40,772 bases of DNA, from the NCBI RefSeq assembly GCF_017940685.1, contig NZ_JAGAYD010000034.1, forward strand, positions 1 to 40,772. Reading direction: 5' to 3'. Below the pieces are notes generated by a model. It was not told where the DNA came from. It worked only from the letters and a program-made list of their open reading frames with translations, and searched no databases. This stretch comes from Butyrivibrio sp. GTDB lineage: Bacteria; Bacillota; Clostridia; Lachnospirales; Lachnospiraceae. The position numbers and the translations under genes were made by a program. This document shows positions 2,211 to 36,552 of this stretch, piece by piece; position 1 is the first letter of the stretch; every line of letters starts with the position of its first letter.

Positions 2211-2250
2211 AATATAGGATAATTGCAGTGGTAATCCGTTTTCTGTACAG
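2211..2250 (-). promoter_or_regulatory. CTGTACAG-box promoter for the parM operon
   Basis: Read on the minus strand: CTGTACAG at 2250-2243, exactly 22 bp, ATCC, then the -10-like TATATT at 2216-2211. The box lies only about five bases after the stop of the NlpC/P60 gene, with no clear terminator between, so read-through from the transfer operon is possible. Confidence 0.7.
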
Positions 2251-2254
2251 CGTC

Positions 2255-5200
2255 TTAGCCTGTGTGCACAACATAATCATAGCCTGCAATTCTTGTGCTG
2301 GTCCCCTTGGTGAGCTGAGTGCCTTTTGACTTACCAGATGTCGTACACTCTACGAAATAGTCTACCGGTTCAGAATCACCTTCAAGTTGCAGCTTTCCGA
2401 CATACATAACAACGTGGTTGCTTGATCCTTCGGCTGTTCCCCATGATGCGTTTTTAACAACAAGATCGCCAGGGACAAGGGAACTTGGGTCCCCACTATA
2501 ACTTGTCACCGGATACCCCATCGCTCCGCTCACCATAGCTCCGCATGAATAATATGCTCCATTTGGTATCTTACCCATTGCCTGGAGAAGATATGAGATA
2601 TAACCAGAACAGTCAAAACCTCTTCCATTGTATGCAGCCCAATCGCCAGTATTGTGCATTCCGTATATATATCCGTATCTGCCTATGGTCGAAAGGATAA
2701 ACTGCATGTATTCTTCAAGGCTTGCAAACTGTGACATATCAAGCCCCTGTTCTTCATACCATTTCTGCATATTGTTCATAATACGAAGGATCTGCGTCTG
2801 TGTAAGCGTGGCCGCCCATCCGGATGGGAATGATAATTCCCCAAATAGTACATCAAGATCTTCCGGGTCGAGGTCAAAGTATGCTATGCAGTTATCCATT
2901 ACCTCGGAGTACATTCTTGGGAGTCCGTCTGCGTCATAGGCTCTTTCTCTTAACATCGACCTGTCAGCATTTTCATATTCCGTCATTCCCCAAAGAGGCA
3001 GAGTATTTTCTCCCTGCGACTCCGTATACCATGCCCTATATCCATTATCGGAACGGTCTTTTGTAATATATACATATTCAGATTCTACGGTTACTATCTC
3101 GTCAAGGAGTCTGCTTTCAATGTTGTAGAAAGGATGCGATGAGTGAGCCCATTCATTACCCACTTCTCCGTTGTGCACCCAATTTGTTCCGTCAAGTTCT
3201 TCCACTTCTAAAGTTGCATCTCGGTACATCATATCGACAAGCCCTGTGTCCTCAAGGAATACGTCTACATGCACCTTGCATCTGTAGTAGTCATTCGTGT
3301 ACAAGGGAATTTCATTGCCATCTATATGCATGTTCGCCTTCATTGAGTTTGACTTGTCTTCTTTTAGATATTCATATGTAAGTGTTACCGTCGCATGATC
3401 CATGATGTCGTCAAACACTTCTTTCGTATACAGAGTTGAGAAAGTTGCATCTGACCCGTCATTATTCTGAAAGCCCATGGCAAAAATAAGGAAAGCCTTA
3501 TAGAACTGGTCTATTCCATATTTCTGGAGATCTCCGTTTGTGTCATAAAACTGAGTATACTTTTCGTTTGTCACGGCATAAGAGTATCTTGAACCGAGGT
3601 ATGTAAATGTACATTCAACATCCGGATTTAAATAGGACGGATCTTCCCATGCTTCATATGCTTCGCTCCATGTGCCGGGGTTTTCTGAATTACCATTTAT
3701 ATTAAATTCAAGTTCGTCAATACCTGCGTTATAACAATCTCTTACAGAGGGCATGTCGTAATCACCGATATCGCCAACAAGTCCTGCATTTCCATAGAAT
3801 TTAAGGTGTACAGTATGGGTTTCATAGTCAGTATATCCATCTTCGCCGCCTATTTCCCATGTATCACTTATTGATGTTTCGTAGACAGGCTTTGCTCCAA
3901 CAGCGTCTTCTCCACCACCCCACTTCCAAGCCCTTTGGCCCCAGTATTTACCAAAGTTAAAGCCTGCGATATCGCCGTCGTAGTAGACAGAAGCCACGTT
4001 TTCGTCTGCCATAAGAGTTGGGTCTGAAGCTCTTATCTGGTCAAACCATGACTCGGGCAACCTCTTTGCGGCCCATATACGCCCCTGTTCTGTATCTACT
4101 GAACACTCAAAAACATTTTCTGTATAGGCTTCCTGCCATGAGTACAGATAGTCTATCATCTTTTGTGCAGCAGAGTCAGCTATTGTTTCTGTCTCAGAGT
4201 CAAACCCCGTCCCCCGGTCGCCTGTCATGCCAACGATACACATGGCAATTACCCATATAAGGACCAGTATTAAGAGAATGCCGCCTATAACAATCGCAAT
4301 TTTTACCGCTGCCCTTTTTAGGAAGTTAAGTAGTGAAAATGGTGATCTTACTACCCTTGATACAATATTATTCCTCAGTTTATCCTGCAAAGGGCGCAGC
4401 CATGGAAGCCTTTTATTTATAAAGGCATTGTACCTTGTTTTTATATTGAATTTTGCAGTGCTGATAGGCGATGCGTACCTGTCTACGCTTGCCTTATAGT
4501 TCATTTTTTTAACACGAAGCTCTTTAGTCTTCTCTGTTATCTTTATGCCTTTTTCTTTCAGCTCTTCTATACTTTTAGCAGATGCGCCTTTCTTTTCAAG
4601 GTCTTTAAGCTTTGCCTTATTTACGACGCTCTGGGCGCCAAGGCCCACTCTTTTTGCGTCATAAGCAATACCGCCTACGCCCTTTATTGTACCGACGACA
4701 CCCGTTTTACCAACTGAGAGTCCCGCAGAGCCGATCTTCCCTACCTTTTTTGCAAAATCATATCCTGTGGCGGTATCAGAGTCTCCATACATTTCTTTGA
4801 CCCACGCCTTGGATGTGTCTTTAAGGCCGCCATGGGACTTCTGGAGCTGCTTAACCCTTCCTTCCTGTCTTCTTAAAAATTGCAGTTCCTTAAGAAGCTC
4901 CCTGCTTTCTTTTGTCAGTTCTACCTTCTGGCCAAGGTGCGCCATACCTCCCACATGTCCTTTTGCAAGGGACATATCTATTTCTCTTAAATTGAGGTTT
5001 TTACCATTTATGGCAAAGTTGTTTCTAAGGGCGTCCTCTACGATCCTTACATTGTTGTTATAATCGCTCAGTATATTTCCGCCGTGTACCTTGCCAACAG
5101 CGTATTTTTCACCCACATAAGTTTTGACGGTATCGTTAAGATTTCTGCTGTACAGAACTCTTTGGAGATCTGCGTTTGATGTCCCCTTTGTAATTCCGCC

Positions 5201-5692: not shown

Positions 5693-5711
5693 ATAAACTC
5701 CTTATAAAAAT

Positions 5712-5739: not shown

Positions 5740-5745
5740 TACTAC

Positions 5746-5967: not shown

Positions 5968-5979
5968 AGGCATACCTCC

Positions 5980-13050: not shown

Positions 13051-14427
13051 TTATGCCCTTTCTCTCTCGCCATCGTCCTTAGACTTATCTTCTTTTGGCG
13101 GAGTCTGCCTTTCTTCTTTCTTTGCCGGAGCTTTTCTTTCCTTCGCATCGTGGTTTTCTATGTCGTATTTTCTAAAACCACGGACAGTAAGCTGATAGTT
13201 ATTGGGGTCTACATCGGCTCTCACAAACTCATCTTTGATGCTCTCTATATCTGCGCCTGAATATCCCTCAAGTTCTTTCCCTGTGATCGCAGCGTCAATG
13301 ACATCTATCATCTCATTCTGGTAGAGGATAAACGCTTCCTTTGGTGGAAGCCTAAAGAGCTCTTCTTTCTTCGGCCCTGTTTTGACAAGAAGGTTCGCCT
13401 TGTCAACGACGCCTTTTTCCATTCTCGAAATCTTTTCCTGCACCTGGTCTTTTTCTGGGCGGGCAGTCTCGAAGTTTCTTTTTGGGGACATCAGATGCTC
13501 GGCAATCCTATTGTCGTCGTTTATGATGGTCTTGTTATATATCTTATCCATGCACTTCTGAAGCTCTATTTCGTAGTCCATCTGATCCTTACTTACCGTA
13601 AGCTCCTGCATGTTCTTTATTTTCCCGTCTTCAAACTTTACCCTGTGAAACTCAAAGCCCTGCGAGTTTATCTCGATATACTTAGACGTATCATCTACAC
13701 CAATGACATAATGGGTTGACTCACACCCCTTTAAGGAAGCTACTTCCCTATCAAGCCTTTCATCAGCATCTACCTGCTGGCGCTTTAGGATTGAATTTTC
13801 CCCGTTAAGGGAGAGCATCGACTCTGCAAAAGCCTTACACAGGTCCATCTTTTCGGGGTCTTTCACTATTACCTTCTGGGCGTGTACAGAAAGAGAAATC
13901 GTGCCGTCGGGCTCTTCTTCCTTGCCTACCATAAAACCTCTGGTTATATCGTTGCATTTATTCTTGAGAACCTCATACTGGTACTTATCAAGGCCGTGGA
14001 GGGTTATAATCTCCTTGTCCTTTATTCTGTCGGTCTTTGCAATGGCTGTTTCGAGCTTTGCAGCATCTATTTCCTGGTAATAATTGCCCTTTGCAGTAAG
14101 GACTCTTTCGTTAAGGCTTGTTACCAGCTCAAGGTCCGGCTGCTTAATGATGATCTTTGTATCATCTGCCGTACTTATAAAGGCAACTCCCTTGTTTGCA
14201 AGTTCCCTCTTAAGCTCGTCTCCACATTTTCCCTGTATAGGATAGGCAATGCATTCCCCGTCATTTTTGATCCATTTTGCCATTTCTCTCTGAGGAGCAT
14301 ATTTTGCCCTGCTCTCAAGCTGTTCTGAGAGCATCTTAAGGAACATGTTTATCTCATCAATGGTCGCTGCCATGAATTTAGTTGTGCTATCAAACTGCTG
14401 TTGGTCTTCAAAATACTGTTTAGCCAT
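13051..14427 (-). CDS. Hypothetical accessory protein upstream of VirD4
   Basis: A 458-residue soluble protein without membrane segments. An N-terminal helical part (about 1-60) leads to a stretch around GVAFISTADDTKIIIKQPD (about 80-100). The C-terminal 45 residues are Lys/Glu/Arg-rich and probably disordered. In many Firmicute elements a DUF3801/PcfB-type protein sits directly before the coupling protein; the position and the cited stretch are compatible, but I cannot confirm the family by eye. It has a good ribosome site (GGAGGG). It forms a two-gene unit with virD4, ending at the 10613-10639 terminator. Confidence 0.6.
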   Translation of the reverse strand: MAKQYFEDQQQFDSTTKFMAATIDEINMFLKMLSEQLESRAKYAPQREMAKWIKNDGECIAYPIQGKCGDELKRELANKGVAFISTADDTKIIIKQPDLELVTSLNERVLTAKGNYYQEIDAAKLETAIAKTDRIKDKEIITLHGLDKYQYEVLKNKCNDITRGFMVGKEEEPDGTISLSVHAQKVIVKDPEKMDLCKAFAESMLSLNGENSILKRQQVDADERLDREVASLKGCESTHYVIGVDDTSKYIEINSQGFEFHRVKFEDGKIKNMQELTVSKDQMDYEIELQKCMDKIYNKTIINDDNRIAEHLMSPKRNFETARPEKDQVQEKISRMEKGVVDKANLLVKTGPKKEELFRLPPKEAFILYQNEMIDVIDAAITGKELEGYSGADIESIKDEFVRADVDPNNYQLTVRGFRKYDIENHDAKERKAPAKKEERQTPPKEDKSKDDGERERA

Positions 14428-14428
14428 T

Positions 14429-14460
14429 GTCTTATCCCTCCATAATATAAATATGGGTTA
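14429..14460 (-). promoter_or_regulatory. Box-less promoter and short leader for the VirD4 unit
   Basis: Minus strand: AACCCATATTTATATTATGG, with the -10-like CATATT at 14455-14450, then GGAGGG and the ATG. No CTGTACAG lies 22 bp upstream. A variant, CTATACAG, is found farther off at 14499-14506. The intergenic region 14428-14634 is shared with the divergent plus-strand gene. Confidence 0.5.
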
Positions 14461-14549
14461 TAGCTCTTCTTTTTTTAATCAGGCACCATATCTATGAGCT
14501 ATACAGAGAGCCGTTTTGTCTGTCATGCATAAAAAGAGTATAAAATTTG

Positions 14550-14589
14550 CTGTACAGAAATTCCTTGTGGCAGGCAAATATCCTATACT
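14550..14589 (+). promoter_or_regulatory. CTGTACAG-box promoter for the lone plus-strand gene
   Basis: Plus strand: CTGTACAG at 14550-14557, exactly 22 bp, ATCC at 14580-14583, then TATACT at 14584-14589. It is the only plus-strand member of the family, showing that the arrangement is directional and travels with the gene. Degenerate copies follow: CTATACAG at 14610-14617 (exactly 60 bp downstream, same flanks TTGC and AAA) and CCGTACAG at 14660-14667. Confidence 0.7.
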
Positions 14590-14634
14590 ATATATAGAAA
14601 AGCAAATTGCTATACAGAAAGTTGAGACGATGAT

Positions 14635-15267
14635 ATGTTTGGATTTAAGAAGAAAAACTCCGTACAGAAAGATCCTGTACTGTATAACTTTGATAAACAG
14701 CCTGTACTGAACACTGAGACGGGTGAGTTTTTAATGGATTTTGATGTTGAACAGCAAAAGATACTCAGAAGACTTGTTGACCTGATGGTTCCGATTGGCT
14801 CTTTTGCCTACAAGGGTCTTCCTGCAAATCTCATGGCTGTGATCGAGGAATGGATAGGTACACTGATTGTCGTACTTGCTAACGGGTCTGTAGCTCCGAC
14901 TCACCATGACTCTTTCCGTAATAGAGATATTGTTTCCTTTAAAGACCCTTCCCACTTTAATGAGAACATTATTTATAACATTGTTCATACGGACTTTGAT
15001 CCAGAGCAGATGAAGTATGCTCTTATTGCCTCAGAGTATGGGGTGGACGTATGTGCCGAGATAGAAGATGTTGCAAGTTTTAGTGCTCTTGCGCTGGCCC
15101 TTGTTTCGGAAGGTGCTAAATATGGTCTCAATATCTGCGATAAGATACATCAAGGGACAAATATATTTGAGCTCAGTGATTATGTTGATAAGCATAGGCA
15201 GAAATATTTAAAAAAGGAACAGCAAAAAGATAAATGGGATGAATTTGAGTGGAAGCTTTTCCATTAA
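14635..15267 (+). CDS. Hypothetical protein, the only convincing plus-strand gene
   Basis: A 210-residue soluble, acidic protein with no membrane helix. The N-terminus is basic (MFGFKKKNSVQKD), and residues 20-35 repeat a PVLYN/PVLNT pattern. No family is recognised. The start at 14635 lacks a convincing ribosome site; a downstream ATG (about 14734, MDFDVEQQ) is an alternative. It is divergent from the VirD4 unit, convergent with ssb, and closed by a two-way terminator. A box-type promoter lies upstream. Opposite orientation and tandem degenerate boxes suggest possible autoregulation; whether it binds the box is open. Confidence 0.75.
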   Translation: MFGFKKKNSVQKDPVLYNFDKQPVLNTETGEFLMDFDVEQQKILRRLVDLMVPIGSFAYKGLPANLMAVIEEWIGTLIVVLANGSVAPTHHDSFRNRDIVSFKDPSHFNENIIYNIVHTDFDPEQMKYALIASEYGVDVCAEIEDVASFSALALALVSEGAKYGLNICDKIHQGTNIFELSDYVDKHRQKYLKKEQQKDKWDEFEWKLFH

Positions 15268-15739: not shown

Positions 15740-15788
15740 GTTCAATTTCCTCCATTTCAATATATGATTAGTTACATAATAAGTATGG
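15740..15788 (-). promoter_or_regulatory. Leader-type (class II) promoter for ssb
   Basis: Minus strand: CCATACTTATTATGTAACTA, then TTGAAATGGAGGA before the ATG. The -10-like CATACT is at about 15788-15783, and the conserved TGTAACTA block is at 15776-15769. No CTGTACAG box. Confidence 0.55.
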
Positions 15789-15810
15789 CAGAATGGCACC
15801 CAAATAAAAT

Positions 15811-16068: not shown

Positions 16069-16098
16069 AAAGGACTCCTTTCTGGGCTTTATATATTA

Positions 16099-16138
16099 AA
16101 TATAGGATTGCAGAGTTTTGATTTTAATTTCTGTACAG
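16099..16138 (-). promoter_or_regulatory. CTGTACAG-box promoter for the 85-residue protein
   Basis: Minus strand: CTGTACAG at 16138-16131, 22 bp, ATCC (16108-16105), TATATT at 16104-16099. Confidence 0.7.
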
Positions 16139-18339: not shown

Positions 18340-18380
18340 GTTTCCTCCATTTCAAATTAGTAGTTACATTCAAAACATGG
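18340..18380 (-). promoter_or_regulatory. Leader-type (class II) promoter for the annealase-exonuclease unit
   Basis: Minus strand: ATCCCATGTTTTGAATG, then TGTAACTA at 18368-18361, then TTTGAAATGGAGGA before the start. The -10-like CATGTT is at about 18379-18374. Confidence 0.55.
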
Positions 18381-18409
18381 GATAAATAAGGGGTTGTGAA
18401 ATTTTACGT

Positions 18410-18564
18410 GTGGATTTATATGTGAAAATAAGAATAGAGTTTTAGAAAGGAGCCCTCTGCCGATATCTTTCACTCCTACAAAGGGTGGGCGGCGCTACCA
18501 CGCGGCGCGACAGGAGATGTATCGTTCTCAAATTCATATGAATAAAAATACTTATATCATATAG
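18410..18564 (-). ncRNA. Candidate small RNA (or 31-codon peptide) with its own box promoter
   Basis: A complete box promoter (18565-18604) fires into a stretch with no normal gene. The stretch contains a GC-rich island (about 18450-18520) that stands out from the AT-rich surroundings. CTCCT (18516-18512 read on minus) can pair with AGGAG (18477-18473), enclosing GCGCC repeats. A 31-codon ORF (18442-18537, MNLRTIHLLSRRVV...) lies within but has no ribosome site. No clear terminator precedes the next promoter, so this could also be a long leader of the annealase transcript. Confidence 0.4.
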
Positions 18565-18604
18565 AATATGGGATATTAGATTGTTAAATAAGTTTTCTGT
18601 ACAG
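18565..18604 (-). promoter_or_regulatory. CTGTACAG-box promoter with no obvious protein gene
   Basis: Minus strand: CTGTACAG at 18604-18597, 22 bp, ATCC (18574-18571), CATATT at 18570-18565. It directly follows the terminator of the upstream gene. The nearest minus-strand gene starts at 18336, beyond a second promoter. Confidence 0.65.
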
Positions 18605-20187: not shown

Positions 20188-20236
20188 TCTATTGTCCTCC
20201 ATTTCCAATAAAAACTATCTAACAACTAAAATATGG
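20188..20236 (-). promoter_or_regulatory. Leader-type (class II) promoter, variant
   Basis: Minus strand: TTCCATATTTTAGTTGTTAG, then ATAG and TTGGAAATGGAGGA before the start. The TGTAACTA block is degenerate here (GTTGTTAGATAG). Confidence 0.5.
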
Positions 20237-20259
20237 AAAAACGGGAGGGAAACAACAAA

Positions 20260-21261: not shown

Positions 21262-21280
21262 TATCTTTAATATGGGATAG
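21262..21280 (-). promoter_or_regulatory. Box-less promoter for the OB-fold zinc protein
   Basis: Minus strand: TATCCCATATTAAAGATAG, with CATATT at 21274-21269. An AGATAG-type block replaces TGTAACTA, then an AAGGAG ribosome site. Confidence 0.5.
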
Positions 21281-25463: not shown

Positions 25464-25513
25464 TTGTATGTCCTCCATTCCATAATCTAGGTAATAATTA
25501 CACTTTAAATATG
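25464..25513 (-). promoter_or_regulatory. Leader-type (class II) promoter for dnaE
   Basis: Minus strand: TTCCATATTTAAAGTGTAAT, then a GGAATGGAGGA block before the ATG. CATATT is at 25513-25508. It is one of two promoter-like sites for this gene. Confidence 0.5.
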
Positions 25514-25534
25514 GAAAATCGGTCCTTTAACATA

Positions 25535-25570
25535 AACATGGGATTTGATATCTTTGAAATTGCTGTACAG
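25535..25570 (-). promoter_or_regulatory. CTGTACAG-box promoter-like site for dnaE, spacing 18
   Basis: Minus strand: CTGTACAG at 25570-25563, but only 18 bp to ATCC (25544-25541), then CATGTT. It is the single exception to the 22-bp rule, upstream of a complete class II promoter. It may be a weak or regulatory copy. Confidence 0.45.
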
Positions 25571-25629: not shown

Positions 25630-26373
25630 TTATGCGATATTTTCCCTTTTTAGGGCTTTTAATTCTTCTATCCGTCTCTTATTCCATTCGCTCATAAAAA
25701 GCGCAGGAGTGTACCAAAAACGGCTGTTTTCATCAACAAATAAGGGGTTGCCTGTGTAAGGCTCTGTAAGGGTATTTCCCTCTACGATAAGAGCCGCACA
25801 TCCAATGAGAGATAACTGGATATATGCCATATTTGCGGCTGTCTGGTCAAGGTCCTGTCCGAAAAAGAGTGCCCCTGTTGACACATCCACGCCTTTTTCT
25901 CTTATCACATCGGCTGCGGCAATGAGCATAGCCCCTGCTCCCACACATGAATCAGCAATAGTTGTGTATTCTTTTCCATTGAGATCCTTGTCGATATCAT
26001 TAAGACTCAGTTCAGCCATAAGATGGCTTACATGGTACGGGGTAAAGAACTGTCCCCAACCTTCTTCGCCCATGGATAATGTCATATAAAGATTTCCAAG
26101 AAAATCCTGTGAAGGGTTGTTACTTAATGCTTCCATTGTGATAGCAAGGAGTCTTATCGGGATTTCCACTCCGCCAAGTCTGTCTGCACATTCCTTAAAT
26201 GCAGCCAATCTTTCCTTTTTTACATCACTCCTTACTTCAGTTATGTTGCTTATATCACATGCAAACATCAGCATAAGATCGCTCCATGCTGACCTTTTGC
26301 TTAGCCCATGCCTGTAACAGAGCTCACTCTCAAAAATCTTTACAAACTCTTTGATGTAATCCTTATCACTCAT
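25630..26373 (-). CDS. N6-adenine DNA methylase-like protein, catalytic motif not seen
   Basis: About 247 residues. It matches the HsdM/N6-methylase fold: GQFFTP near residue 95, the SAM-binding DSCVGAGAML motif near 130, and GQDLDQTAANMAYIQLSL near 165. The expected NPPF/NPPY catalytic motif after EGNTL is absent; the sequence there reads EPYTGNPLFVDE. It has no target-recognition domain and no restriction partner. It may bind SAM without methylating, or use a divergent motif. I chose the ATG at 26373 (GGAGAAG before it), which overlaps the upstream gene by eight bases. Confidence 0.75.
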   Translation of the reverse strand: MSDKDYIKEFVKIFESELCYRHGLSKRSAWSDLMLMFACDISNITEVRSDVKKERLAAFKECADRLGGVEIPIRLLAITMEALSNNPSQDFLGNLYMTLSMGEEGWGQFFTPYHVSHLMAELSLNDIDKDLNGKEYTTIADSCVGAGAMLIAAADVIREKGVDVSTGALFFGQDLDQTAANMAYIQLSLIGCAALIVEGNTLTEPYTGNPLFVDENSRFWYTPALFMSEWNKRRIEELKALKRENIA

Positions 26374-27004
26374 CTTCTTCTCCGCTTTCTGCAAAGTCTC
26401 GCAACGCATCCTCAAGGATTTTTCTCGTTACGTCCTTCATAAGGTCAAAGTCATAATCGACATAACCATCAGTTTTGTATTCCATGTATCTTGCCGATGT
26501 CATTCGGGTAAGAAAGTTCCAAGCATCATCAGTGAACAGATCACTGTTCTCATCATCACCCATGCATCTTTCGATACTGGATCTGAGATAGTTTTTTGCT
26601 GTCTGCCACCCATATCGGGGAACGTCCCGCATGAGGATGTCTCTTATATAGTCATAATCTTTATCCGACAGTACGGGACCATCAGCAAAGTATACCTCTT
26701 CGCCCGTTTTCTTATTCTGGATGTCAAAGTGGATTGATGGGTGGTTTTTAAGGTGTTTGTATCTTGAGACGAACTGCATTATCTTTATGTCATATTCAGA
26801 CAGCGGGAAAATATCCGTAAGTTCATGCAGGAAATCATAACTCTCTGATATCAGTTCTATCTCCCTATTTTTCTCATCTCCGCATTCCTTCGCTCTTAAT
26901 CCAGCGTCAGCAAAGTTTATGATAATGTCTTTTTCTATGTCGGTGCTGTATTCAACCCCATCTACTGTTATTGTTTTTTCGCACTTAACGTGAAATATAC
27001 TCAT
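26366..27004 (-). CDS. Hypothetical protein coupled to the methylase-like gene
   Basis: A 212-residue acidic soluble protein beginning MSIFHVKCEKTITVDGVEY. The N-terminal 100 residues look like mixed strands and helices; the rest is helical, ending in an acidic tail. No family is recognised. A GGAGGG ribosome site precedes the ATG. It is the first long gene after a box promoter at 27118-27157 and is co-translated with the methylase-like gene, so the two may work together. Confidence 0.65.
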   Translation of the reverse strand: MSIFHVKCEKTITVDGVEYSTDIEKDIIINFADAGLRAKECGDEKNREIELISESYDFLHELTDIFPLSEYDIKIMQFVSRYKHLKNHPSIHFDIQNKKTGEEVYFADGPVLSDKDYDYIRDILMRDVPRYGWQTAKNYLRSSIERCMGDDENSDLFTDDAWNFLTRMTSARYMEYKTDGYVDYDFDLMKDVTRKILEDALRDFAESGEEDE

Positions 27005-27084: not shown

Positions 27085-27117
27085 ATAAAAACTAGATTTT
27101 ATCGGCTCTGTACTATA

Positions 27118-27157
27118 AATATGGGATATTCCGGCTTTCGGACAGTTTTCTGTACAG
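27118..27157 (-). promoter_or_regulatory. CTGTACAG-box promoter for the methylase-like unit
   Basis: Minus strand: CTGTACAG at 27157-27150, 22 bp, ATCC (27127-27124), CATATT at 27123-27118. Confidence 0.7.
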
Positions 27158-27192: not shown

Positions 27193-28422
27193 TTATGCAG
27201 TTTTAGTCTGTGGCTGTAAAAGGCTTGCCTTGATCTTTTTAAGATAGGTAATGAACTTCTCTCTTCCGCTTTTTGTCTTCACATAATCACAGAGGAAGTC
27301 ATCAAGCCCCTTATAGTTTTTTTGCCACTGTCCGTTTTTGGTGTCCCATGTCAGTGTATGCGCCTTAAAGCCATTTTTTTCAATCTCTCTTAGGAGATTT
27401 TGCTGAGCCTGCTTTACCACTTTGTTTTCATCGACTTTATCCATGTCATAAGCCTCTACAAAACAAATGTTAAGCCCCGCCTTTTTCTTCATGAACTCTT
27501 TAAAGCCGCCGATTGTGCCAACACCGGGCACTCCTATCACAGACACTTCTTTGCCGAGAAGGCAATAGATGATGAGGGCTTTGAGTATTCCTTCTGTCAC
27601 GATCCAGAGAGATGTATCTTTCCCTGGAAGGATTGTCGGAAGTGCTCCGGAAGATGCTCCGTCGTGCTTTCTTGAAGATGAGAGCCAGATGTACTTACCG
27701 CCTTTTTGTGGGTTATCAGCTCTTATCTGCATACCTGCGATCTGGTTTGTTTCCCCATCAAATGCAGGACAGTAATACCCTTTGGTGTCATCCACCATCG
27801 TATATATACTGTAATGACCGTAAGTATAAAACCCTGGTACTTTTGCGGGGAAGATGCCGGAAGACACTATCTCTCCTGCGGCTTCCTTACCACTATCGGG
27901 TACAGAACAGAACCTAAAACGCTTTATGTCTTCTTCAGACAGGCCACGCCTTAACAGATCCTTTTTGTGCTCCTCTTTAAGCTTCGTGCATTTAAGCTTT
28001 GTAAGCCTGTAGTACACTTTAGAGCACAGTTCGTCTTCTGCCCTTTCTGGGAGCTTATACTCATCTGGAGGATTTATCTCTCTCCAGTTTGCGGGGATCT
28101 TTAAATCCTCATCATTTTCTTCCTGTCCCAAGAGACCAAAAATCTCGCATCCTTTTTTGAATTTCTCATTAAAGTCTGTGAGTCCATACTCAATGCCTAT
28201 AAGGTCGAATGTATCATAGCGAGCACCGCAATGACACGCACATGAGTTGGATGGGCGATGATAACTCATGTCACCATGGGTATCGTCGTGGTTTGGATTA
28301 AGGCACTTGAAGTTCCTTTCCGGATTGATACCTTCTCTCTCAAGGTACTGGGGAAGATGAGCCTTGATATACTCTTTTGCCTCATTTCTCTCGGCTTTAC
28401 TTGCCCTTATTTTCGCTGCCAT
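27193..28422 (-). CDS. DnaG-like primase (CHC2 zinc finger plus TOPRIM)
   Basis: A 409-residue protein. An N-terminal zinc-finger region of CHC2 type has Cys40, His45 and the Cys61/63/65 cluster (CACHCGARYDTFDLI). A central region follows, and a TOPRIM-like domain has WIVTEG near residue 275 and YDMDKVDE near 326, the acidic metal-binding residues of DnaG-type primases. It is shorter than chromosomal DnaG (about 600) and lacks a clear helicase-binding C-terminus. With the polymerase, SSB and helicases it probably makes primers for the element's own replication. Class II promoter, GGAGGA ribosome site. Confidence 0.8.
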   Translation of the reverse strand: MAAKIRASKAERNEAKEYIKAHLPQYLEREGINPERNFKCLNPNHDDTHGDMSYHRPSNSCACHCGARYDTFDLIGIEYGLTDFNEKFKKGCEIFGLLGQEENDEDLKIPANWREINPPDEYKLPERAEDELCSKVYYRLTKLKCTKLKEEHKKDLLRRGLSEEDIKRFRFCSVPDSGKEAAGEIVSSGIFPAKVPGFYTYGHYSIYTMVDDTKGYYCPAFDGETNQIAGMQIRADNPQKGGKYIWLSSSRKHDGASSGALPTILPGKDTSLWIVTEGILKALIIYCLLGKEVSVIGVPGVGTIGGFKEFMKKKAGLNICFVEAYDMDKVDENKVVKQAQQNLLREIEKNGFKAHTLTWDTKNGQWQKNYKGLDDFLCDYVKTKSGREKFITYLKKIKASLLQPQTKTA

Positions 28423-28466
28423 AACTGTCCTCCTATTTATTTTGAATGATTACATCCTAAATATGG
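28423..28466 (-). promoter_or_regulatory. Leader-type (class II) promoter for the primase
   Basis: Minus strand: ATCCCATATTTAGGATGTAA, then TCATT and an AGGAGGAC site. CATATT is at 28465-28460. No CTGTACAG upstream; the terminator of the HAD gene occupies that place. Confidence 0.55.
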
Positions 28467-28485
28467 GATTTTTGCTCCAACTAAA

Positions 28486-29099: not shown

Positions 29100-29864
29100 C
29101 TATCTCAACAGTTCTTTAGCCAGTGCATGGACTTTTCTTTCCTGTCTTGTCGCCTCATATGTCTTGAGTTTTTCTGTTATCTGCTCTACTTCTTTTTCTG
29201 TAAACACATCCGGAAGTGAATTTATATCCTCCTTTAGGAGTTTGAGCCCGTTTGTAAAACCCCATTGCCTTACAAGAGCCATTTTTTCGGTGCTGTTTTT
29301 CAGCATACCGACGTATGGTTTATTTAAGCTCTTTCTCTTGACTCCGCAGTAAGTGAACTCGAAATCAGAGTTGGTTATTACAATATTATATATATTAGTA
29401 AATCCATGGTCTTTAAGCGCCATCACATGTTTATAGTTCTGGTTAAACGGATTCTGCATCTGATATGTTCCTGCATATTCTTGCCTTGTCCAGACCTTTT
29501 GATTTAATGATCCCTGTAGGGGAATATCTCTATTCTTAAAGGATTTACATTCTATACAGAAGATGCCCTTTGTGCAGACAAATGCCATGTCGGCTTCTGT
29601 CTCTTTTGCCATGGCTTCATATCCTATCTCCATGGGACGTTTTTTAAGTTCCTTATATGATGTCTTTATCTTGTAGAATATAAGGTTTCTTACAACATCG
29701 GCATTGAATGTTTTTTTGAACTTAGAGGCTACCATGTCTTCAAATTCGTCGCCTCTTCTCTTTACCCTTACAGCTCCGATACCACCAAAGATGAAGCCAG
29801 ATATTATCGAGATAAGTGTCACTGCCGCCCCGATGATAACCAGGGCTATAAAAATCTTAAACAT
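29100..29864 (-). CDS. NERD-domain membrane-anchored protein
   Basis: A 254-residue protein. An N-terminal membrane helix (about 3-30, IFIALVIIGAAVTLISII) is followed by a NERD (nuclease-related) domain of PD-(D/E)XK type. In that domain GDEFEDMV lies near 38, TEADMAFVCTKGIFCIECKSFK near 88-109, and a QNPFNQNYKHVMAL segment near 140. The Asp, then Glu-x-Lys (IECK), pattern matches nuclease active residues. NERD proteins occur on plasmids and are linked to DNA processing; function unproven. It has its own box promoter with a short leader. Confidence 0.8.
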   Translation of the reverse strand: MFKIFIALVIIGAAVTLISIISGFIFGGIGAVRVKRRGDEFEDMVASKFKKTFNADVVRNLIFYKIKTSYKELKKRPMEIGYEAMAKETEADMAFVCTKGIFCIECKSFKNRDIPLQGSLNQKVWTRQEYAGTYQMQNPFNQNYKHVMALKDHGFTNIYNIVITNSDFEFTYCGVKRKSLNKPYVGMLKNSTEKMALVRQWGFTNGLKLLKEDINSLPDVFTEKEVEQITEKLKTYEATRQERKVHALAKELLR

Positions 29865-29890
29865 AAGTCAGATCCTGCCTTTCTGATATA

Positions 29891-29930
29891 AATATAGGCG
29901 AAAGCTTTTAGATATATGATTTCTGTACAG
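29891..29930 (-). promoter_or_regulatory. CTGTACAG-box promoter for the NERD gene
   Basis: Minus strand: CTGTACAG at 29930-29923, 22 bp, CGCC (29900-29897), TATATT at 29896-29891. Confidence 0.7.
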
Positions 29931-30253: not shown

Positions 30254-30299
30254 ATCATTATCCTCCTTGAAAATACACAATACTTTTACTCCTACATAT

Positions 30300-30339
30300 A
30301 ATATGGGTTATTTTGCTTACAAAAATAATTTCTGTACAG
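30300..30339 (-). promoter_or_regulatory. CTGTACAG-box promoter for the two-helix membrane protein
   Basis: Minus strand: CTGTACAG at 30339-30332, 22 bp, AACC (30309-30306), CATATT at 30305-30300. Confidence 0.7.
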
Positions 30340-30384: not shown

Positions 30385-31344
30385 TTAGAACAGATCGCCA
30401 AGATCAAATGCCTTTTTCAGATCCTCGTCGGATGCAAGTACGGGACTCTCAATAAGGACATTGTTCTCCTTTACCGGAGCAAACTTCTTGAGTGAGCTGT
30501 AAAGCTTCTGCTTAAGAAGTGATGACCTTGAGTTGACGTACTGAGAATTGAAACTTCTTACGTCCATTCCAAACACCTCGTCGTCGGGATAATCCTTGGC
30601 ATAATCTCTGAGATAACGGATGACCTCTTTTGTTTTAAGCCTTAAACCATCGTCCTTGATGTGGTTTTCAATGAGGAACTCCTCAAAAGATGTAAGATGC
30701 AAACGCTCTACCGCACTGGAGACTTCCTCGGACTGTTCGTTCTTGAGATATATAACAGCCGGGTCCTTATAAGGAGATTCAAAATCGTGGTTTTCTGTCA
30801 CGTCATCAAGTGATGATACAGAATTGCCGATCAGATATTTCCTCGTCTCAATAACGGTCTTCAGTGAATGCTCTTTTGAACCTGCGAGCTTCGAGAGCTT
30901 CTCGGGTGTGAGCCTTGGATCAAGGATTCCGTCGTAGCCATATTGCTGCGCTACCCTTGTAAGGTACTTGATCTGCTTCTCGTAGTGACGCGAATTAGCC
31001 TTACCACTGTCTTTCTGTACAGTGTTGAACGCCTCAAGGAACTTAGTCTTAAAAAATGTTGTAAGAGTTGACTTTCTGGCGTCATACTTGTCAATCTCTT
31101 TACATATCATCTCAAGACACTGCTGTTCGTAGTCCTCATGCTCAACATATCCTGCCATGTGGTTGAGACGGTACAGGCTCTCGTAATAGCCCTTTATCTT
31201 GGCTGCCACAAAGAGAATCCAAGAGTCCTTGTCGATGATGCCTGCCAGATACTTGTCCTGCATGGCGATCACTTCAGTGTTGTCTTTCTGTTCTGTCTGT
31301 TCTGTTGTTTCTGCGTTGATGTTTAATTCCTGGTCGTATCCCAT
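30385..31344 (-). CDS. Divergent sigma-70-like factor
   Basis: A 319-residue protein whose domain order resembles a sigma-70 factor. About 70-108 looks like region 2 (YEQQCLEMICKEIDKYDARK, aligning with the helix that ends in a KFD-type turn). About 144-181 looks like region 3 (LTPEKLSKLAG, then SVSSLDD). About 235-290 looks like a region 4 helix-turn-helix (DVRSFNSQYVNSRSSLLKQ). Identity is low, so this is pattern-based. It would direct RNA polymerase to special promoters, and the element has two unusual promoter families. Its start overlaps the 56-residue ORF upstream. A non-sigma DNA-binding regulator remains possible. Confidence 0.65.
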   Translation of the reverse strand: MGYDQELNINAETTEQTEQKDNTEVIAMQDKYLAGIIDKDSWILFVAAKIKGYYESLYRLNHMAGYVEHEDYEQQCLEMICKEIDKYDARKSTLTTFFKTKFLEAFNTVQKDSGKANSRHYEKQIKYLTRVAQQYGYDGILDPRLTPEKLSKLAGSKEHSLKTVIETRKYLIGNSVSSLDDVTENHDFESPYKDPAVIYLKNEQSEEVSSAVERLHLTSFEEFLIENHIKDDGLRLKTKEVIRYLRDYAKDYPDDEVFGMDVRSFNSQYVNSRSSLLKQKLYSSLKKFAPVKENNVLIESPVLASDEDLKKAFDLGDLF

Positions 31345-31493: not shown

Positions 31494-31543
31494 TTATCCT
31501 TGTCCTCCTGTGCTGTTGTTAATGATTACACAGTAAATATGGA
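31494..31543 (-). promoter_or_regulatory. Leader-type (class II) promoter for the sigma-like unit
   Basis: Minus strand: TTCCATATTTACTGTGTAAT, then CATTAACAAC and AGGAGG. CATATT is at 31541-31536. The sigma-like gene is thus driven by class II, not by the CTGTACAG class. Confidence 0.55.
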
Positions 31544-31555
31544 AGAAGGACAGGG

Positions 31556-31895: not shown

Positions 31896-31900
31896 AAAAA

Positions 31901-31924: not shown

Positions 31925-31934
31925 TTTTAAGGAA

Positions 31935-33761
31935 TTAAGCCGCAGCGGGCGCTTTAACGTCAATCTCGACCATAGGAATACCGTGTGCCTTGATGGCGGC
32001 TACGGTCTCCATATGGTTTACAGCTGCGAATACAACGTGATCATATTCTGAACTGTATGTGCAGATGATATCAAGAAGTGCATTAAAGTTCTCTGCGTCC
32101 ATTACTGAGAGCTCGTCAATGAAGAGAATACGTGTACCAGAGAGGGAATTGAGCATATCCATGATCATAAAGAGCATGTAAGCTTTTTCTCCGCCGGAGA
32201 GGTTCTCATACGGAAGGAACCCGTTGCCCGTATCCATAAGGATTTTTATGCCATCCTCCGGAATGATGGAGAACGACACATCTCCTCTTATCTTCTGTGA
32301 CCTTTCGTTGATAAGATCCTCGAAGACTTTCACATACTTGGCGATAATGGCTACTCTTACGCAGCCCTTTTCTCCAAATACCTTTACCAGATATTCAAGG
32401 CACTCAAGCTCTTCTGTCATGGCCTCGATATTACCAGAGATTTTGATGCCTTCCTCATACTCCTCGATGATCGAAAGGAGCTTTTTGCAATTCTCGATTT
32501 CTTCTGCCACTCCGGCATCTTCCGGTACTTCCATCTCGGGCTTTTCAGGGATCTCGATCTTGCGGTCCTCAAGTTCCTTGATACGTCTTGCAAGGTCTAC
32601 TTTCTTCTCGTAGGCTATTCTGCCCTTGTTGTACTCCTCTATCTGAGCCTCAACAAGAGCTATCTTCTCGTCGAGCTTCTTCGACTCCTCATCGAAAGCC
32701 TTAAGCCCTTCCTTTGTTGCCTCAATGGAGTCCATGATTTCTTCTTTGGCAACACTCTTATCTGTGTGGCATGTGATAAGAGGGGAGATGGGGCATACAG
32801 AAGTCTCGATGGCTGCAAGGGTTGTTTCAAGTCTCTTTAAGGCGCTTGTCATTCCTGTAAGCTGGATGTCCTGATTGCGCCTTGAAGCATTAAGCTCTGC
32901 CCTCTTTTCGTTAAGGGAATGAAGCTCTGCGGGATTTGGTCTTGCCGCCGTGATAGAGTCATATTCTGACTTTAACGATGCGATGACCTCTTCCTGCTTC
33001 TTTGCGTTCTCAACCGCCGTGTTATATGCCTTCTTCTTAACCTCCAACACCTCTCTCTTATTTGCGATCTCGGTATAGAGAGAAAGCTTTCCTTCAACCT
33101 CTGACTTTATTGCTGGCATATCCTTTGGCTTGGTCTCGTAGAGCGCCTTCTTCTCAGCAATGCGGGCTTTAAGCTCTTTTCTTGAGCTCTTGAGCATATC
33201 CAGAAAAGCGTCGATATCGGACATGTCGATATTCTCCTCGGGGAGATTAGCCGCGATAGTATCAAGTATGCGGGGGTTTGTCTTATCCAGATGGTCGATG
33301 ATGAACTCAATATTTACCTTTTCCGGAATATAATCCAAGATAAACTTTGAGAACTCCTGTGGCTTCATATTAGCCACAACCTCGGCTGAAGACAGCACCT
33401 TGATCTTGTCTATCGGGATGCCGCACACATCCTGTATCTTCTCGTTAAGCTTTGTTGCTGTTGTTGCAACTCCGTCGATCTTAAACTTTGACGGCTTTGA
33501 GCGATGCTTAGAACGGGAAAACACAATGTCTGACCCGTCAACGGGATCTACAAGCGTAACATCAACCCTGCACTCATCAGCATCATTATTGATGATAGAC
33601 CCGTCTGGCTCTTCTCCTGCAAGTGCGTAGCGGATCGCATTAAGGATGGATGTCTTTCCGATACCGTTTCTTCCAACAAGCGCAGCAATCGAGGGTACAT
33701 CGAACTCTGTAGCGCCCTTATAGCCCATAAAATTGACTACTCTTAAGTGTTTGATTACCAT
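31935..33761 (-). CDS. Rad50/SMC-like coiled-coil ATPase
   Basis: A 608-residue ABC-type ATPase. Walker A is at about 30-38 (GRNGIGKTS). There are two coiled-coil arms, roughly 190-300 and 340-470, with a Cys-bearing turn between (SVCPISPLITCH) that may be a hook-like tip. The signature LSGGEK is near 519 and Walker B ILFIDEL near 545. Related proteins work with a nuclease (SbcD/Mre11, gp46/47) in DNA end processing, but no such nuclease gene is visible here. The N-terminus is RecF-like. Class II promoter; ribosome site GGAGGA. Confidence 0.85.
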   Translation of the reverse strand: MVIKHLRVVNFMGYKGATEFDVPSIAALVGRNGIGKTSILNAIRYALAGEEPDGSIINNDADECRVDVTLVDPVDGSDIVFSRSKHRSKPSKFKIDGVATTATKLNEKIQDVCGIPIDKIKVLSSAEVVANMKPQEFSKFILDYIPEKVNIEFIIDHLDKTNPRILDTIAANLPEENIDMSDIDAFLDMLKSSRKELKARIAEKKALYETKPKDMPAIKSEVEGKLSLYTEIANKREVLEVKKKAYNTAVENAKKQEEVIASLKSEYDSITAARPNPAELHSLNEKRAELNASRRNQDIQLTGMTSALKRLETTLAAIETSVCPISPLITCHTDKSVAKEEIMDSIEATKEGLKAFDEESKKLDEKIALVEAQIEEYNKGRIAYEKKVDLARRIKELEDRKIEIPEKPEMEVPEDAGVAEEIENCKKLLSIIEEYEEGIKISGNIEAMTEELECLEYLVKVFGEKGCVRVAIIAKYVKVFEDLINERSQKIRGDVSFSIIPEDGIKILMDTGNGFLPYENLSGGEKAYMLFMIMDMLNSLSGTRILFIDELSVMDAENFNALLDIICTYSSEYDHVVFAAVNHMETVAAIKAHGIPMVEIDVKAPAAA

Positions 33762-33813: not shown

Positions 33814-33847
33814 GGAGAAAGATGAATGTTTGAAAATATAGAAAAAA

Positions 33848-33867
33848 GGCTCAGTTTTCACTGAGCC
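33848..33867 (-). terminator. Terminator embedded in the end of a coding sequence
   Basis: Minus strand GGCTCAGT, loop GAAA, ACTGAGCC, then TTTTTT. The stem starts inside the Trp codon and includes the codons Leu-Ser-Glu-Asn and the stop of the 68-residue membrane protein gene. Confidence 0.9.
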
Positions 33868-34057
33868 ACTCCTTCTTCTGGAACAACGTATCTGATATTA
33901 CACCTACTATCACACTTACAACAGGCATTGTGAACGCTATCCAACAGAACATTGTGACCGTTCCAACAACTCCGCCATATCCTGCGGCAATGTGAGTTAC
34001 AATGCTGTAAACCGTGTAGATAAGTAGCATTATCACAAACGCAATTTTTTTCTTCAT
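33851..34057 (-). CDS. Small two-helix membrane protein
   Basis: A 68-residue protein: a lysine-rich start (MKKKIAFVIMLLIYTVYS), membrane helices at about 4-25 and 33-57, and a short polar end. The ATG at 34057 follows GGAGGG; the ATG at 34081 is part of the leader block. Own class II promoter and a terminator that overlaps the last codons. No family recognised. Confidence 0.65.
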   Translation of the reverse strand: MKKKIAFVIMLLIYTVYSIVTHIAAGYGGVVGTVTMFCWIAFTMPVVSVIVGVISDTLFQKKEWLSEN

Positions 34058-34105
34058 ATTGTCCCTCCAACTCCATTTCAATAATAGCTACATTTAAAAT
34101 ATAGA
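34058..34105 (-). promoter_or_regulatory. Leader-type (class II) promoter for the 68-residue membrane protein
   Basis: Minus strand: CTATATTTTAAATGTAGCTA, then TTGAAATGGAG and GGAGGG. TATATT is at 34103-34098. No terminator separates it from the RecD-like gene upstream. Confidence 0.5.
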
Positions 34106-34127
34106 TAAGAGGAGGTATAACAATATT

Positions 34128-36482
34128 TTAGACCGCTTCTCTGAGCCTTTCTGAAAGGGCTGTGTTCCTTTCATTGTCATCGGTTTTGCCAACTGCGATG
34201 TCAAATGCCGAGAGCATACGACCATACTGGAACTTTTCTTCCCCGTAGAAGCGGAACTCCTTCTTTGCTCTGGTCTCTCCTGTATAGAAAAGTGAGCGGT
34301 TTAAAAGGATGTAGTCTCCGAAGGTATAAGCCATCATCATGCAGACCGCTTCTGACCCCTGGCATTTATGGAGGGTTGTTGCGTAGGCAAGTGTAAGGTT
34401 AAGAGCAGTGGCCTTTGTATACCCACCAACAGAGCCGTCATCGAATTTTACGATCATCTTGTATGAGTCGTTTTCTTCGTCCGGCATAATCTTCTGTACA
34501 GTTCCTTTTTCGCCATTAAAGATACCCTGTACCATTTCGCCGCCTCTTCGCATCTCAAAGTTATAGTCGTTCTTTGTCTGCATTACCCTGTCGCCGACTC
34601 TGAACTTAAGGGTTGGTGAATACACAGCCTCATCCTTGCCCTTGGTAAACTCGTCCTGCAAAAGGCTGTTGAGCTTGTTTACTGCAACACAGCCCCTTTC
34701 CCTCATTGCTGCGCAGAGCATTACATTTGTGATACCGTACTGCTCCACCTTTTTCTTGTAATCAGCAACAATAAGGTCGGCGATATTATCTGAATTTGCA
34801 GGGATATAGACAAAATGCTCGTCATAGCAATACTTATCTATCTTCATTCCTGCATTTATAAGTTCTGAATTATGGGCTATCGTACCGGAGTTTCTATGTC
34901 CCTGCTTGAGCAGGATGCACGGAATTACCTCTGAGTCGATCATGTCTTTTAAGACCTTGCCAGGACCTACGGATGCGATCTGGTCAACGTCACCAATGAA
35001 GATGATATTACAGTCCCTTGCGTACTTAAGGATCTTATGCATAAGGAAGATATCGACCATTGAGGACTCATCGCAAAGTATGAGCTTTCCCTCGGGTGCC
35101 TGTCCTGTCTTTTCCATCGAAAAGATTGCCCTGTGGGCTGTCATTGCGTCATAGCCTGTGCTTTCCGTCATTCTCTGTGCAGCTCTTCCAGTTGGTGCAA
35201 GCATGATGATATCTTTTTTGTCGTATCTTTTACCTGCATTTAAGAAGCTTTCTGCGATGATCTCGGCAATAGCGGTCTTTCCTCTACCGGGGCCTCCGGA
35301 TATGATAGACACTCTGTTCATAAGACCAAGATATACTGCTTTTCTCTGCTCTTCTGTAACTACGAAAGTTCCAAGGGAGGACTTCTCCATCTCCTTAGTC
35401 TTTCTTGCTTCCACATTCTTAATGGACTTTTCTATCACGTCTTTTTCGATAAAGCGGACGCTGTGCTCTGAAAGCATATCCTTGAGCATCTTTGCACAGG
35501 ATGTCTCAACGTTATACATCTTTGCGGTGTAGATCCTGCCATAATCATTTACCAGAGTCCCGTTTTCAACCGACTGTGAAATTGCGTCAGCCAGAGTGTC
35601 AAGAATAAGAGTCCTTGACTCTACCGTTCTGTCAATGAGCTCTAATGTCTCTGCGCAGGGATCGTACTTTTTGATAAACTTTTCCCTGTTTACAGCCCAG
35701 TTCTTTGCGGCGTTTTCAGCGGTCTTTTCTGTTGTGTCATCGGGAAATTTAGGCATCGGGCAAAGAATGTGCACGATCTGCTCCCTTATCTCTTCCATGG
35801 TCTGGAAGCAGTGCCCGCCTGCCTGCTGTGCATTTTCGATAACATAGTAAACCGCTGCCTGCAATCTGTATATGGAGTCGGGCTTAATGCCACACCCCAT
35901 AGCAAGGTTGTCTGCCTTGATAAATCCAAAGCCGTCAAGATCTGTCTGAAGGACGTATGGATTTTTTTTGAGCGTCTTTACTGCATCATCGCCGTATTTA
36001 TCATATATCTGCTGTACCTGGAGCTTTGTGCCTGTCCCGTTAAGGAACATGACAATATCCATGTACTTTTTATTCTCTTCAAATGAAGGAAGCGCCTTCT
36101 CGATAGTGGCTGTCCCAAGCCCCTTTACCGTAGAGAGCATTATCCTTCCTTCTTCTGTCTCGAACATTTTGAGGGCATCTCTGCCAAAGGCGTTCGCAAT
36201 AGCCCTAGCTTTGGCAAGGCCAATGTACTTTACATATCCGTCTGCAAGAAAGCGCACTACGCCCGCATTCTTATCGGCTTCCACATTGATGACAGAGCTT
36301 ATCTTAAACTGTCTTCCATACTTATTTACTTCTTCTCCGCCCTCAAGGGTTACAAGCATACCGATGGAAGCGTTTGGTATAACACCAACCGCCAGGGTTT
36401 TCTTTCCGGCATTTAAAAGCTCATATCTACCCCAATCATTGTCTTTCTGAGTGAGGATTTTCTTTATCTCGCCTGTGATCAT
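34128..36482 (-). CDS. RecD2-like DNA helicase (first copy)
   Basis: A 784-residue superfamily 1 helicase of the RecD/TraA type. A helix-hairpin-helix-rich N-terminal part (about 80-330) precedes Walker A near 395 (SGGPGRGKTA), Walker B LCDESSMVD near 475, GDVDQIASVGPG near 500, and C-terminal motifs LHKCQGSE and YTGETRAK near 710-740. It unwinds DNA 5' to 3' in recombination or replication. It is similar in layout to the helicase at 38289-40403, so the element carries two. A box promoter drives it; ribosome site GGAGGG. Confidence 0.9.
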   Translation of the reverse strand: MITGEIKKILTQKDNDWGRYELLNAGKKTLAVGVIPNASIGMLVTLEGGEEVNKYGRQFKISSVINVEADKNAGVVRFLADGYVKYIGLAKARAIANAFGRDALKMFETEEGRIMLSTVKGLGTATIEKALPSFEENKKYMDIVMFLNGTGTKLQVQQIYDKYGDDAVKTLKKNPYVLQTDLDGFGFIKADNLAMGCGIKPDSIYRLQAAVYYVIENAQQAGGHCFQTMEEIREQIVHILCPMPKFPDDTTEKTAENAAKNWAVNREKFIKKYDPCAETLELIDRTVESRTLILDTLADAISQSVENGTLVNDYGRIYTAKMYNVETSCAKMLKDMLSEHSVRFIEKDVIEKSIKNVEARKTKEMEKSSLGTFVVTEEQRKAVYLGLMNRVSIISGGPGRGKTAIAEIIAESFLNAGKRYDKKDIIMLAPTGRAAQRMTESTGYDAMTAHRAIFSMEKTGQAPEGKLILCDESSMVDIFLMHKILKYARDCNIIFIGDVDQIASVGPGKVLKDMIDSEVIPCILLKQGHRNSGTIAHNSELINAGMKIDKYCYDEHFVYIPANSDNIADLIVADYKKKVEQYGITNVMLCAAMRERGCVAVNKLNSLLQDEFTKGKDEAVYSPTLKFRVGDRVMQTKNDYNFEMRRGGEMVQGIFNGEKGTVQKIMPDEENDSYKMIVKFDDGSVGGYTKATALNLTLAYATTLHKCQGSEAVCMMMAYTFGDYILLNRSLFYTGETRAKKEFRFYGEEKFQYGRMLSAFDIAVGKTDDNERNTALSERLREAV

Positions 36483-36512
36483 AAATATCCCTCCGCAAAT
36501 TGTCCTATTTAT

Positions 36513-36552
36513 AATATAGGTTATTGGAAGGTATAATAGCTTTTCTGTACAG
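36513..36552 (-). promoter_or_regulatory. CTGTACAG-box promoter for the first RecD-like gene
   Basis: Minus strand: CTGTACAG at 36552-36545, 22 bp, AACC (36522-36519), TATATT at 36518-36513. Confidence 0.7.

Follow-up and report, generated by a model that had tools for sequence, protein, structure and literature searches.

A candidate private promoter class with a box centred at -42.5 on a conjugative plasmid-like element of Butyrivibrio

The element and its box promoters

The stretch of DNA analysed here (the window, 40,772 bases, contig NZ_JAGAYD010000034.1 of Butyrivibrio sp., assembly GCF_017940685.1) carries a family of putative promoters in which a palindrome-like box, CTGTACAG, stands at a fixed distance ahead of a -10-like hexamer, YATATT. 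The window (C143) and four other contigs of the same genome (C33, C103, C138 and C246) comprise 85,739 bases together, and we infer that they represent one element because they share the promoter motif and the gene content, with binning errors being possible. According to Pfam, the predicted proteins include components of transfer (VirD4, a VirB4-like TraG, PrgI, a T2SSE ATPase and a Mob_Pre relaxase) and of DNA metabolism (DNA polymerase III alpha, SSB, RecD2-like helicases, a Rad52-like protein, RecJ and a topoisomerase), as well as HU, NrdD, ParA, an actin-like ParM relative and an integrase, and judged by its genes the element is a large conjugative plasmid or integrative element. An initial annotation, made from the sequence of the window, had listed nine intergenic boxes, which belong to the following promoters:

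2204..2250, minus strand: box promoter of the ParM-like actin gene (1084-2169), with CTGTACAG at 2243-2250, TATATT at 2216-2211 and the predicted start at 2204
14550..14596, plus strand: box promoter of gene 14635-15267, with the hexamer TATACT at 14584-14589 and CTATACAG variants of the box at 14499 and 14610
16092..16138, minus strand: box promoter of gene 15811-16068, which is followed by an SSB-like open reading frame (ORF, 15320-15799)
18558..18604, minus strand: box promoter separated from the Rad52-like gene by a leader of about 220 nucleotides
25528..25570, minus strand: the outlier upstream of dnaE, in which 18 bp separate the box from ATCCCATGTT
27111..27157, minus strand: box promoter upstream of gene 26366-27004, with a possible 21-amino-acid ORF in the leader (seen by eye)
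29884..29930, minus strand: box promoter of the NERD gene (29100-29864)
30293..30339, minus strand: box promoter serving a small gene that lies between the NERD gene and the sigma-like gene
36506..36552, minus strand: box promoter of the RecD2-like gene (34128-36482)

All nine box positions proved correct, and the measured gaps agree with those given at the outset, i.e. exactly 22 bp between the box and the four bases preceding YATATT in eight cases and 18 bp in the ninth (box 25563). The hexamer was generally described correctly as YATATT, with the exception of box 14550, where it reads TATACT at the same 22-bp spacing. As a total, nine is too low: the window contains 19 copies of CTGTACAG, where 0.31 are expected from dinucleotide shuffles, and while each of the nine intergenic copies lies ahead of a YATATT-like hexamer, the other ten lie within genes and have no such -10. 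The box had also been said to occur on both strands, which holds across the five contigs, whereas the promoters of the window are distributed 8 to 1, only 14550 being on the plus strand. The five contigs together carry 39 of the 144 CTGTACAG sites of the genome, 19 of which are of the promoter type, 18 of them at gap 22. Three further promoters have CTATACAG at gap 22, so that the element has 21 sites at this gap (18 with CTGTACAG and 3 with CTATACAG) and one at 18.

A chance origin of the fixed spacing is excluded. When the exact box was combined with the exact sequence CCYATATT, 15 pairs were found in the element at the true gap and none at the other 79 gaps tested, and no pair occurred at any gap in 20 control contigs of the same genome (175,053 bases). 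With up to two mismatches in the box, the element had 18 pairs at the true gap and 7 at other gaps, as compared to 1 and 4 in the control contigs. Exact YATATT hexamers located 3' of all 78 box orientations were found 16 times at gap 26 (22+4), the next best gap having 3, and none of 2000 shuffles attained 16. The same spacing is thus not equally common at random positions.

The family also appears to be as private as had been claimed. In the own genome (3.67 Mb in 281 contigs), CTGTACAG-N20-24-CCYATATT has 15 exact matches, all on the five contigs, and exact box and -10 together are found there only on the element. Three of 146 genomes searched as relatives matched, namely the own genome (G000) and, with one match each at other gaps, G008 and G028. 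There is thus no sign of the family on chromosomes in the genomes searched. In a collection of genome contigs, from which records of the own genome were possibly left out, the promoter pattern matched 13 stretches once each. The gaps of 19 to 23 that were found there numbered 4, 1, 2, 5 and 1, with 21 being the true gap in that pattern, and because of this scatter we regard these matches as chance. Four scans of viral contigs gave no relative and no match to the window promoter. The box as such also occurs elsewhere in the genome, as the first 6 kb of contig C100 contain three CTGTACAG, half of all six counted in the control contigs, and on contig C96 there are at least 10.

Promoter anatomy and the -10 without a box

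At the 21 sites with gap 22, the box reads CTRTACAGAAA. In an alignment of 19 sites of the element, in which site 25563 was padded by four bases and site 6628 of C103 was added by eye, AAA follows directly after the box (A at -37 in 19/19 sites, at -38 and -36 in 18/19), AWCC precedes the hexamer (C at -13 in 19/19, at -14 in 18/19), and six bases after the YATATT-like hexamer there is a start signature with a pyrimidine at -1 and a purine at +1, each in 18 of the 19 sites. Because the box and a loose -10 pattern had served to pick the sites, the corresponding columns are in part a product of the selection, unlike AAA, -16, -12 and the start columns. No conserved -35 hexamer is present in the 19 sites. 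Since the start signature places the predicted +1 at the seventh base past the hexamer, the centre of the box lies at -42.5, close to the -42 that had been estimated initially. With 21 sites centred in this way relative to predicted starts, the promoters have the geometry of class-II activation, in which a site is centred near -41.5 or -42.5 at many promoters.

The -10 also occurs without the box. WWCCYATATT is found 24 times in the element, 17 times with a box at the true gap, versus 3 times in 175 kb of other contigs. The looser pattern WWYCYATRYT occurs 48 times in the element and 25 times in the other contigs, the latter matches not being sorted by position. Once matches within genes are removed, 37 rows remain in the element, 20 boxed (the boxed site 29923 falls outside this pattern) and 17 others. 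These 17 include the site with gap 18 and three sites that lack a gene on the same strand within 320 bases ahead, which leaves 13 boxless -10s ahead of a gene, 12 of them with a purine at +1. Their genes include the transfer operon (14459), an SSB-like gene (21278) and a primase-like gene (28469). The boxless -10s of the window are:

14443..14459, minus strand: boxless -10 AACCCATATT of the conjugation operon, gene 13051-14427
18367..18383, minus strand: boxless -10 ATCCCATGTT of the Rad52-like gene
20223..20239, minus strand: boxless -10 TTTCCATATT before gene 19984-20208
21262..21278, minus strand: boxless -10 of the SSB-like gene 20308-21216
25501..25517, minus strand: boxless -10 TTTCCATATT of dnaE
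28453..28469, minus strand: boxless -10 of the primase-like gene 27193-28422
33828..33844, minus strand: boxless -10-like TTTCTATATT before gene 31935-33761, without a purine at +1 and the weakest of the set
34091..34107, minus strand: boxless -10 TATCTATATT before gene 33851-34081
31529..31545, minus strand: a boxless near-match to the -10, CTTCCATATT followed by TACTGT G, in front of the sigma-like gene (found by eye, outside the pattern)

A motif search without a preset motif in 49 upstream regions of the element returned TATCCCATATTTa, estimated to occur in a fraction of 0.47 of the regions, with a log-likelihood of 186.8 versus 70.3 in one shuffled control run with fewer seeds. The same search in 65 upstream regions of the host gave only a weak motif resembling a ribosome-binding site (79.4 versus 65.0). 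AWCCYATATT is, as far as can be judged from sequence, enriched in its own right and precedes many genes of the element. At dnaE, the boxless -10 (hexamer 25513-25508) is closer to the gene than the site with the 18-bp gap. Box 18597 has its predicted start about 220 nucleotides before the next gene, which owns a boxless -10 (hexamer 18379-18374). The leader in between (18367-18558) has a GC-rich core. The initial proposal that each box points at a gene or a candidate RNA is not borne out for a structured RNA at this site, as the folded part (18440-18560) is no more stable than shuffles (z 0.09). Between the divergent transfer operon and gene 14635-15267, three boxes (CTATACAG, CTGTACAG, CTATACAG) are clustered at 14499, 14550 and 14610.

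The sigma-like protein and related elements

A candidate reader of the private -10 is encoded close to the box promoters of the NERD region:

30385..31344, minus strand: 319-amino-acid diverged sigma-70-like protein

In a search of 392 genomes, the best outside match of this protein was a 313-amino-acid protein of G669, a genome of the same family and another genus (E 3.7e-9), followed by two weaker matches (E 0.005 and 0.006). A search of 299 genomes gave a match to a clear sigma-70 protein in G173 (E 1.8e-4). Like the window gene, the G669 ortholog sits between homologs of an AAA/SMC-like protein and the NERD nuclease, and it matches Sigma70_r2 with E 3.3e-4 and 20.8 bits, below the cut-off of 24. 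The two proteins recognize each other in BLASTP (1e-10), and when the aligned pair was compared with a sigma family of 32 sequences, a probability of 96.3% was obtained (E 1.7e-9, 178 columns; 95% for the G669 protein alone), while no value above 0.44% came from 30 column shuffles and none above 2.75% from 25 other pairs. The alignment covers region 2 to the start of region 4 and ends at residue 251 of 319. Homology to sigma-70 region 2 is therefore indicated via the syntenic ortholog and the pair profile. A structure prediction from the single sequence had a mean predicted local distance difference test score (pLDDT) of 38.7. A tblastn search with the 319-residue protein gave nothing among plasmids (E up to 1) and nothing among phages (E up to 5), and the G669 ortholog had no plasmid match either (E up to 0.1).

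The G669 ortholog belongs to a sister element. Contig C16 of G669 has matches for 24 of the 90 predicted ORFs of the Butyrivibrio element, 20 of which are window ORFs in nearly the same order, with the SSB-like gene displaced, and more homologs are found on contigs C21 and C26. Identities are 52-59% for VirB4, VirD4, DnaE, the SSB-like protein and RecD2 and 23% for the sigma-like pair, and some other pairs are as diverged as the latter. The promoter of this element reads TC(T/A)TATATATTT, with a purine at +1 in all 26 sites, which were selected outside genes and with a gene within 200 bases. As the A/T core was imposed by the search, the free columns are C at -16 (25/26) and the start columns. 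Nothing 5' of -17 exceeds the information cut-off in these sites, and there is no conserved -35. The pattern TCTTATATATTTA occurs 33 times in the 2.9-Mb genome of G669, 31 times on C16 (22), C21 (6) and C26 (3), with 0 matches of the reversed-pattern control, and an unaided motif search recovers the promoter in 44 regions (205.3 versus 58.9). In 73 kb of C16, CTGTACAG is absent and CTATACAG occurs 3 times. By all sequence indications, the G669 element thus combines an orthologous sigma-like gene with a different, boxless private promoter, and sigma-like protein and promoter appear to have diverged together.

A search with the SSB-like protein led to plasmid pCY360 of Butyrivibrio proteoclasticus (NC_014389) and, more distantly, to pRUMAL01 of Ruminococcus albus. 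For 38 of the 90 predicted ORFs, pCY360 has tblastn matches (E up to 0.01), one of them concerning a spurious ORF in a repeat. DnaE, the SSB-like protein, VirB4, ParA (70%), HU (77%) and NrdD (57%) are homologous, and with these common replication and transfer genes the element resembles a pCY360-like megaplasmid. In pCY360, a box TGTGCAGAAA stands 26 bp before a TATAAT-like hexamer, which is the distance in the window, but this box has G in place of A in the middle and is not palindromic, and the -10 is TATAAT-like. TATAAT with up to one mismatch lies exactly 26 bp from CAG at 17 of the 44 TGTGCAGAAA sites, the next best gap having 5, and none of 2000 shuffles exceeded 7 at any gap. The top unaided motif in 160 sampled upstream regions contains TGCAGAAA, and sites resembling ATCCATAATA are biased to upstream positions (10/23). 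The pattern TGTRCAGAAA-N22-24-TATAAT matched 4 of 80 genomes of the genus, with five matches in G061, all on contig C3, which has the coordinates of pCY360, and one each in the three others; 9 of 80 genomes of the family had one match each at mixed gaps. In 50 kb of pCY186 from the same strain, TGTGCAGAAA was not found. The box therefore looks private in pCY360 too, as far as its sequence tells. The annotated sigma-70 factor of pCY360 matches Sigma70_r2 (8.7e-4) and r4 (1.5e-4), both below the cut-off. A paper that mentions pCY360 (PMC2914790) contains, in its accessible parts, nothing on promoters. A scan of viral contigs for the pCY360-type promoter gave 7 contigs with single matches, all one base too long, which we consider unrelated. 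A stretch of about 330 bp of the window (36610-36938) has 14 long copies in pCY360 with 83-88% identity and occurs once in the five contigs; it is absent from the G669 stretches searched, and has no Rfam match near the gathering score. In pRUMAL01 (1-49900), a motif search in 28 upstream regions gave CTGCTATAA (106.3 versus 61.7 shuffled), which may represent one more promoter peculiar to a plasmid or else an extended -10 belonging to the host.

The TATAAT-like -10 of pCY360 raises the question of whether the host housekeeping sigma factor reads YATATT as a weak -10, with a class-II activator alone setting the class and the sigma-like protein doing other work. YATATT is one or two bases off TATAAT, and at those 17 of 44 sites of pCY360 the hexamer at the fixed gap departs from TATAAT by no more than one base. 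We nevertheless regard a reading by the host factor as somewhat unlikely, as boxless private -10s stand before genes of the element and as G669 has an orthologous sigma-like gene with another private -10 and no box; to our knowledge, moreover, the conserved CC at -14/-13 is not a housekeeping motif. The boxless promoters can also be taken to indicate that the -10 may not need the box at all, in which case the box could be a repressor operator over a sigma-driven promoter, as the boxless G669 element would permit. An operator is quite unlikely, however, as the box occupies a single exact phase at -42.5 in two plasmids: such a phase is typical of class-II activators, and positions of repressor sites are usually variable.

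A further possibility is suggested by boxes within genes. In 64 coding sequences of the element of at least 100 amino acids (70,875 bases, eight ORFs dropped as spurious), there are 21 CTGTACAG, one of them being a promoter box at a gene end, versus 2.4 in synonymous shuffling (0/300 shuffles), and CTATACAG occurs 14 times versus 4.67 (0/200). Four other palindromes of like composition are absent from these coding sequences. In predicted coding sequences of pCY360, TGTGCAGAA was counted 19 times versus a mean of 5.3, with at most 11 in 40 shuffles. The in-gene boxes of the window are:

357..364: in-gene box
further in-gene boxes start at 5148, 10916, 11252, 11838, 12816, 25011, 28816, 31015 and 34494

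These excesses would be expected if the box were mainly a plasmid-wide architectural, partition or segregation site with the promoters as a subset. We consider this unlikely: the constant distance to the -10 calls for an explanation at the level of transcription, and separate AT-rich repeats stand upstream of the ParA/ribbon-helix-helix pair. These repeats (ATGTAA/TTACAT, identified by eye) lie at about 6142-6600 of C103, upstream of the ParA/ribbon-helix-helix operon, and likely are a partition site. Because of them, the ParA-linked ribbon-helix-helix protein was set aside as box binder. Another small ribbon-helix-helix protein (C246, 3636-3833; RHH_3 with E 2.5e-4) is a weak candidate; pCY360 has a match to it, and the searched stretches of G669 have none (E up to 0.01).

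A proposed private transcription programme and its precedents

We propose, with a probability of just under 0.6, that the element is transcribed by its own sigma factor together with a class-II-type regulator, and that the promoters constitute a private class of a conjugative plasmid-like element. The 319-residue sigma-70-like protein would read AWCCYATATT without a -35, and a separate, candidate dimeric DNA-binding protein on the box would contact the holoenzyme as a class-II-type activator. The boxless promoters, including that of the transfer operon, would be expressed by sigma only, and the box protein may also bind along the whole element, as the in-gene boxes suggest.

Several points weigh against this proposal. 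By itself, the 319-residue protein has no Pfam match, its E value with a sigma hidden Markov model is 0.19 with 1 of 500 shuffles scoring higher, and it reaches only 59% in the profile comparison. G173 has a clear sigma factor, but no private promoter was seen by eye in the surrounding 40 kb. The sigma factor of pCY360 has no similarity to the 319-residue protein that BLASTP detects, and as the host sigma factor could read the TATAAT-like -10 of that plasmid, box and private sigma factor need not belong together. The logos are partly circular, since the sites were chosen by the box and parts of the -10 and, in G669, by the A/T core. By the motif search, roughly one in two of the element's upstream regions has the -10, not all of them. 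Finally, promoter activation alone does not account for the in-gene boxes, which a pure promoter activator would not need.

Sigma factors encoded by plasmids are already known, as are master activators of plasmids. By analogy, the closest precedent is SigN of plasmid pBS32 from Bacillus subtilis, likewise a plasmid-encoded sigma factor, with autoactivation and with a regulon on the plasmid to which genes for replication and nucleotide metabolism belong; its authors found no promoters of the SigN class on the chromosome (PMC6751061). SigN promoters have a -35 and a -10, and the accessible part of the report mentions no upstream box, whereas the promoters described here have a box at -42.5, lack a -35 and belong to another plasmid family. 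A SigN-type consensus of -35 plus -10 is found neither in the 19 sites of the element nor in the 26 of G669. The position of the box would fit class-II activation as for AcaCD of IncA/C plasmids, whose motif lies at class-2 distance upstream of starts and whose regulon is likewise element-wide, and which according to the accessible text is not exchangeable with SetCD of related elements (PMC4207636). AcaCD differs in being FlhDC-like and in activating tra promoters, while the transfer operon is boxless here, and none of the 61 of 90 predicted ORFs scanned matched the FlhDC-like CD Pfam family. In phage T4, a diverged sigma-family protein reads a -10-only promoter, as is proposed for the element. 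The element differs in being a conjugative plasmid and in its fixed upstream box, in place of which the late system of T4 (gp55/gp33/gp45; PMC7892883, PMC2988020) uses a sliding clamp. In the published work searched, with most subscription papers outside reach, no description of this promoter class was found.

If the proposal is correct, a private -10 on many genes, including those for DNA polymerase and SSB, together with a box at -42.5 that is conserved in a second plasmid would come close to a transcription programme of the plasmid's own. The orthologous elements with different private promoters make a co-evolution of sigma factor and promoter testable, and they offer candidate orthogonal sigma/promoter pairs for the genetics of gut anaerobes as well as a sequence tag for assigning contigs to plasmids. 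More tentatively, and with the odds rather against it, the conjugative megaplasmids of this family might have a transcription code of their own, consisting of a fast-diverging sigma-like protein and a matching -10, to which Butyrivibrio-type plasmids add the box, bound by a single protein at -42.5 and at dozens of in-gene sites, while sister elements switch the code with the sigma factor. If so, one factor would couple plasmid-wide DNA organisation to plasmid-wide transcription, and the switching of the code with the sigma factor would insulate co-resident plasmids from each other.

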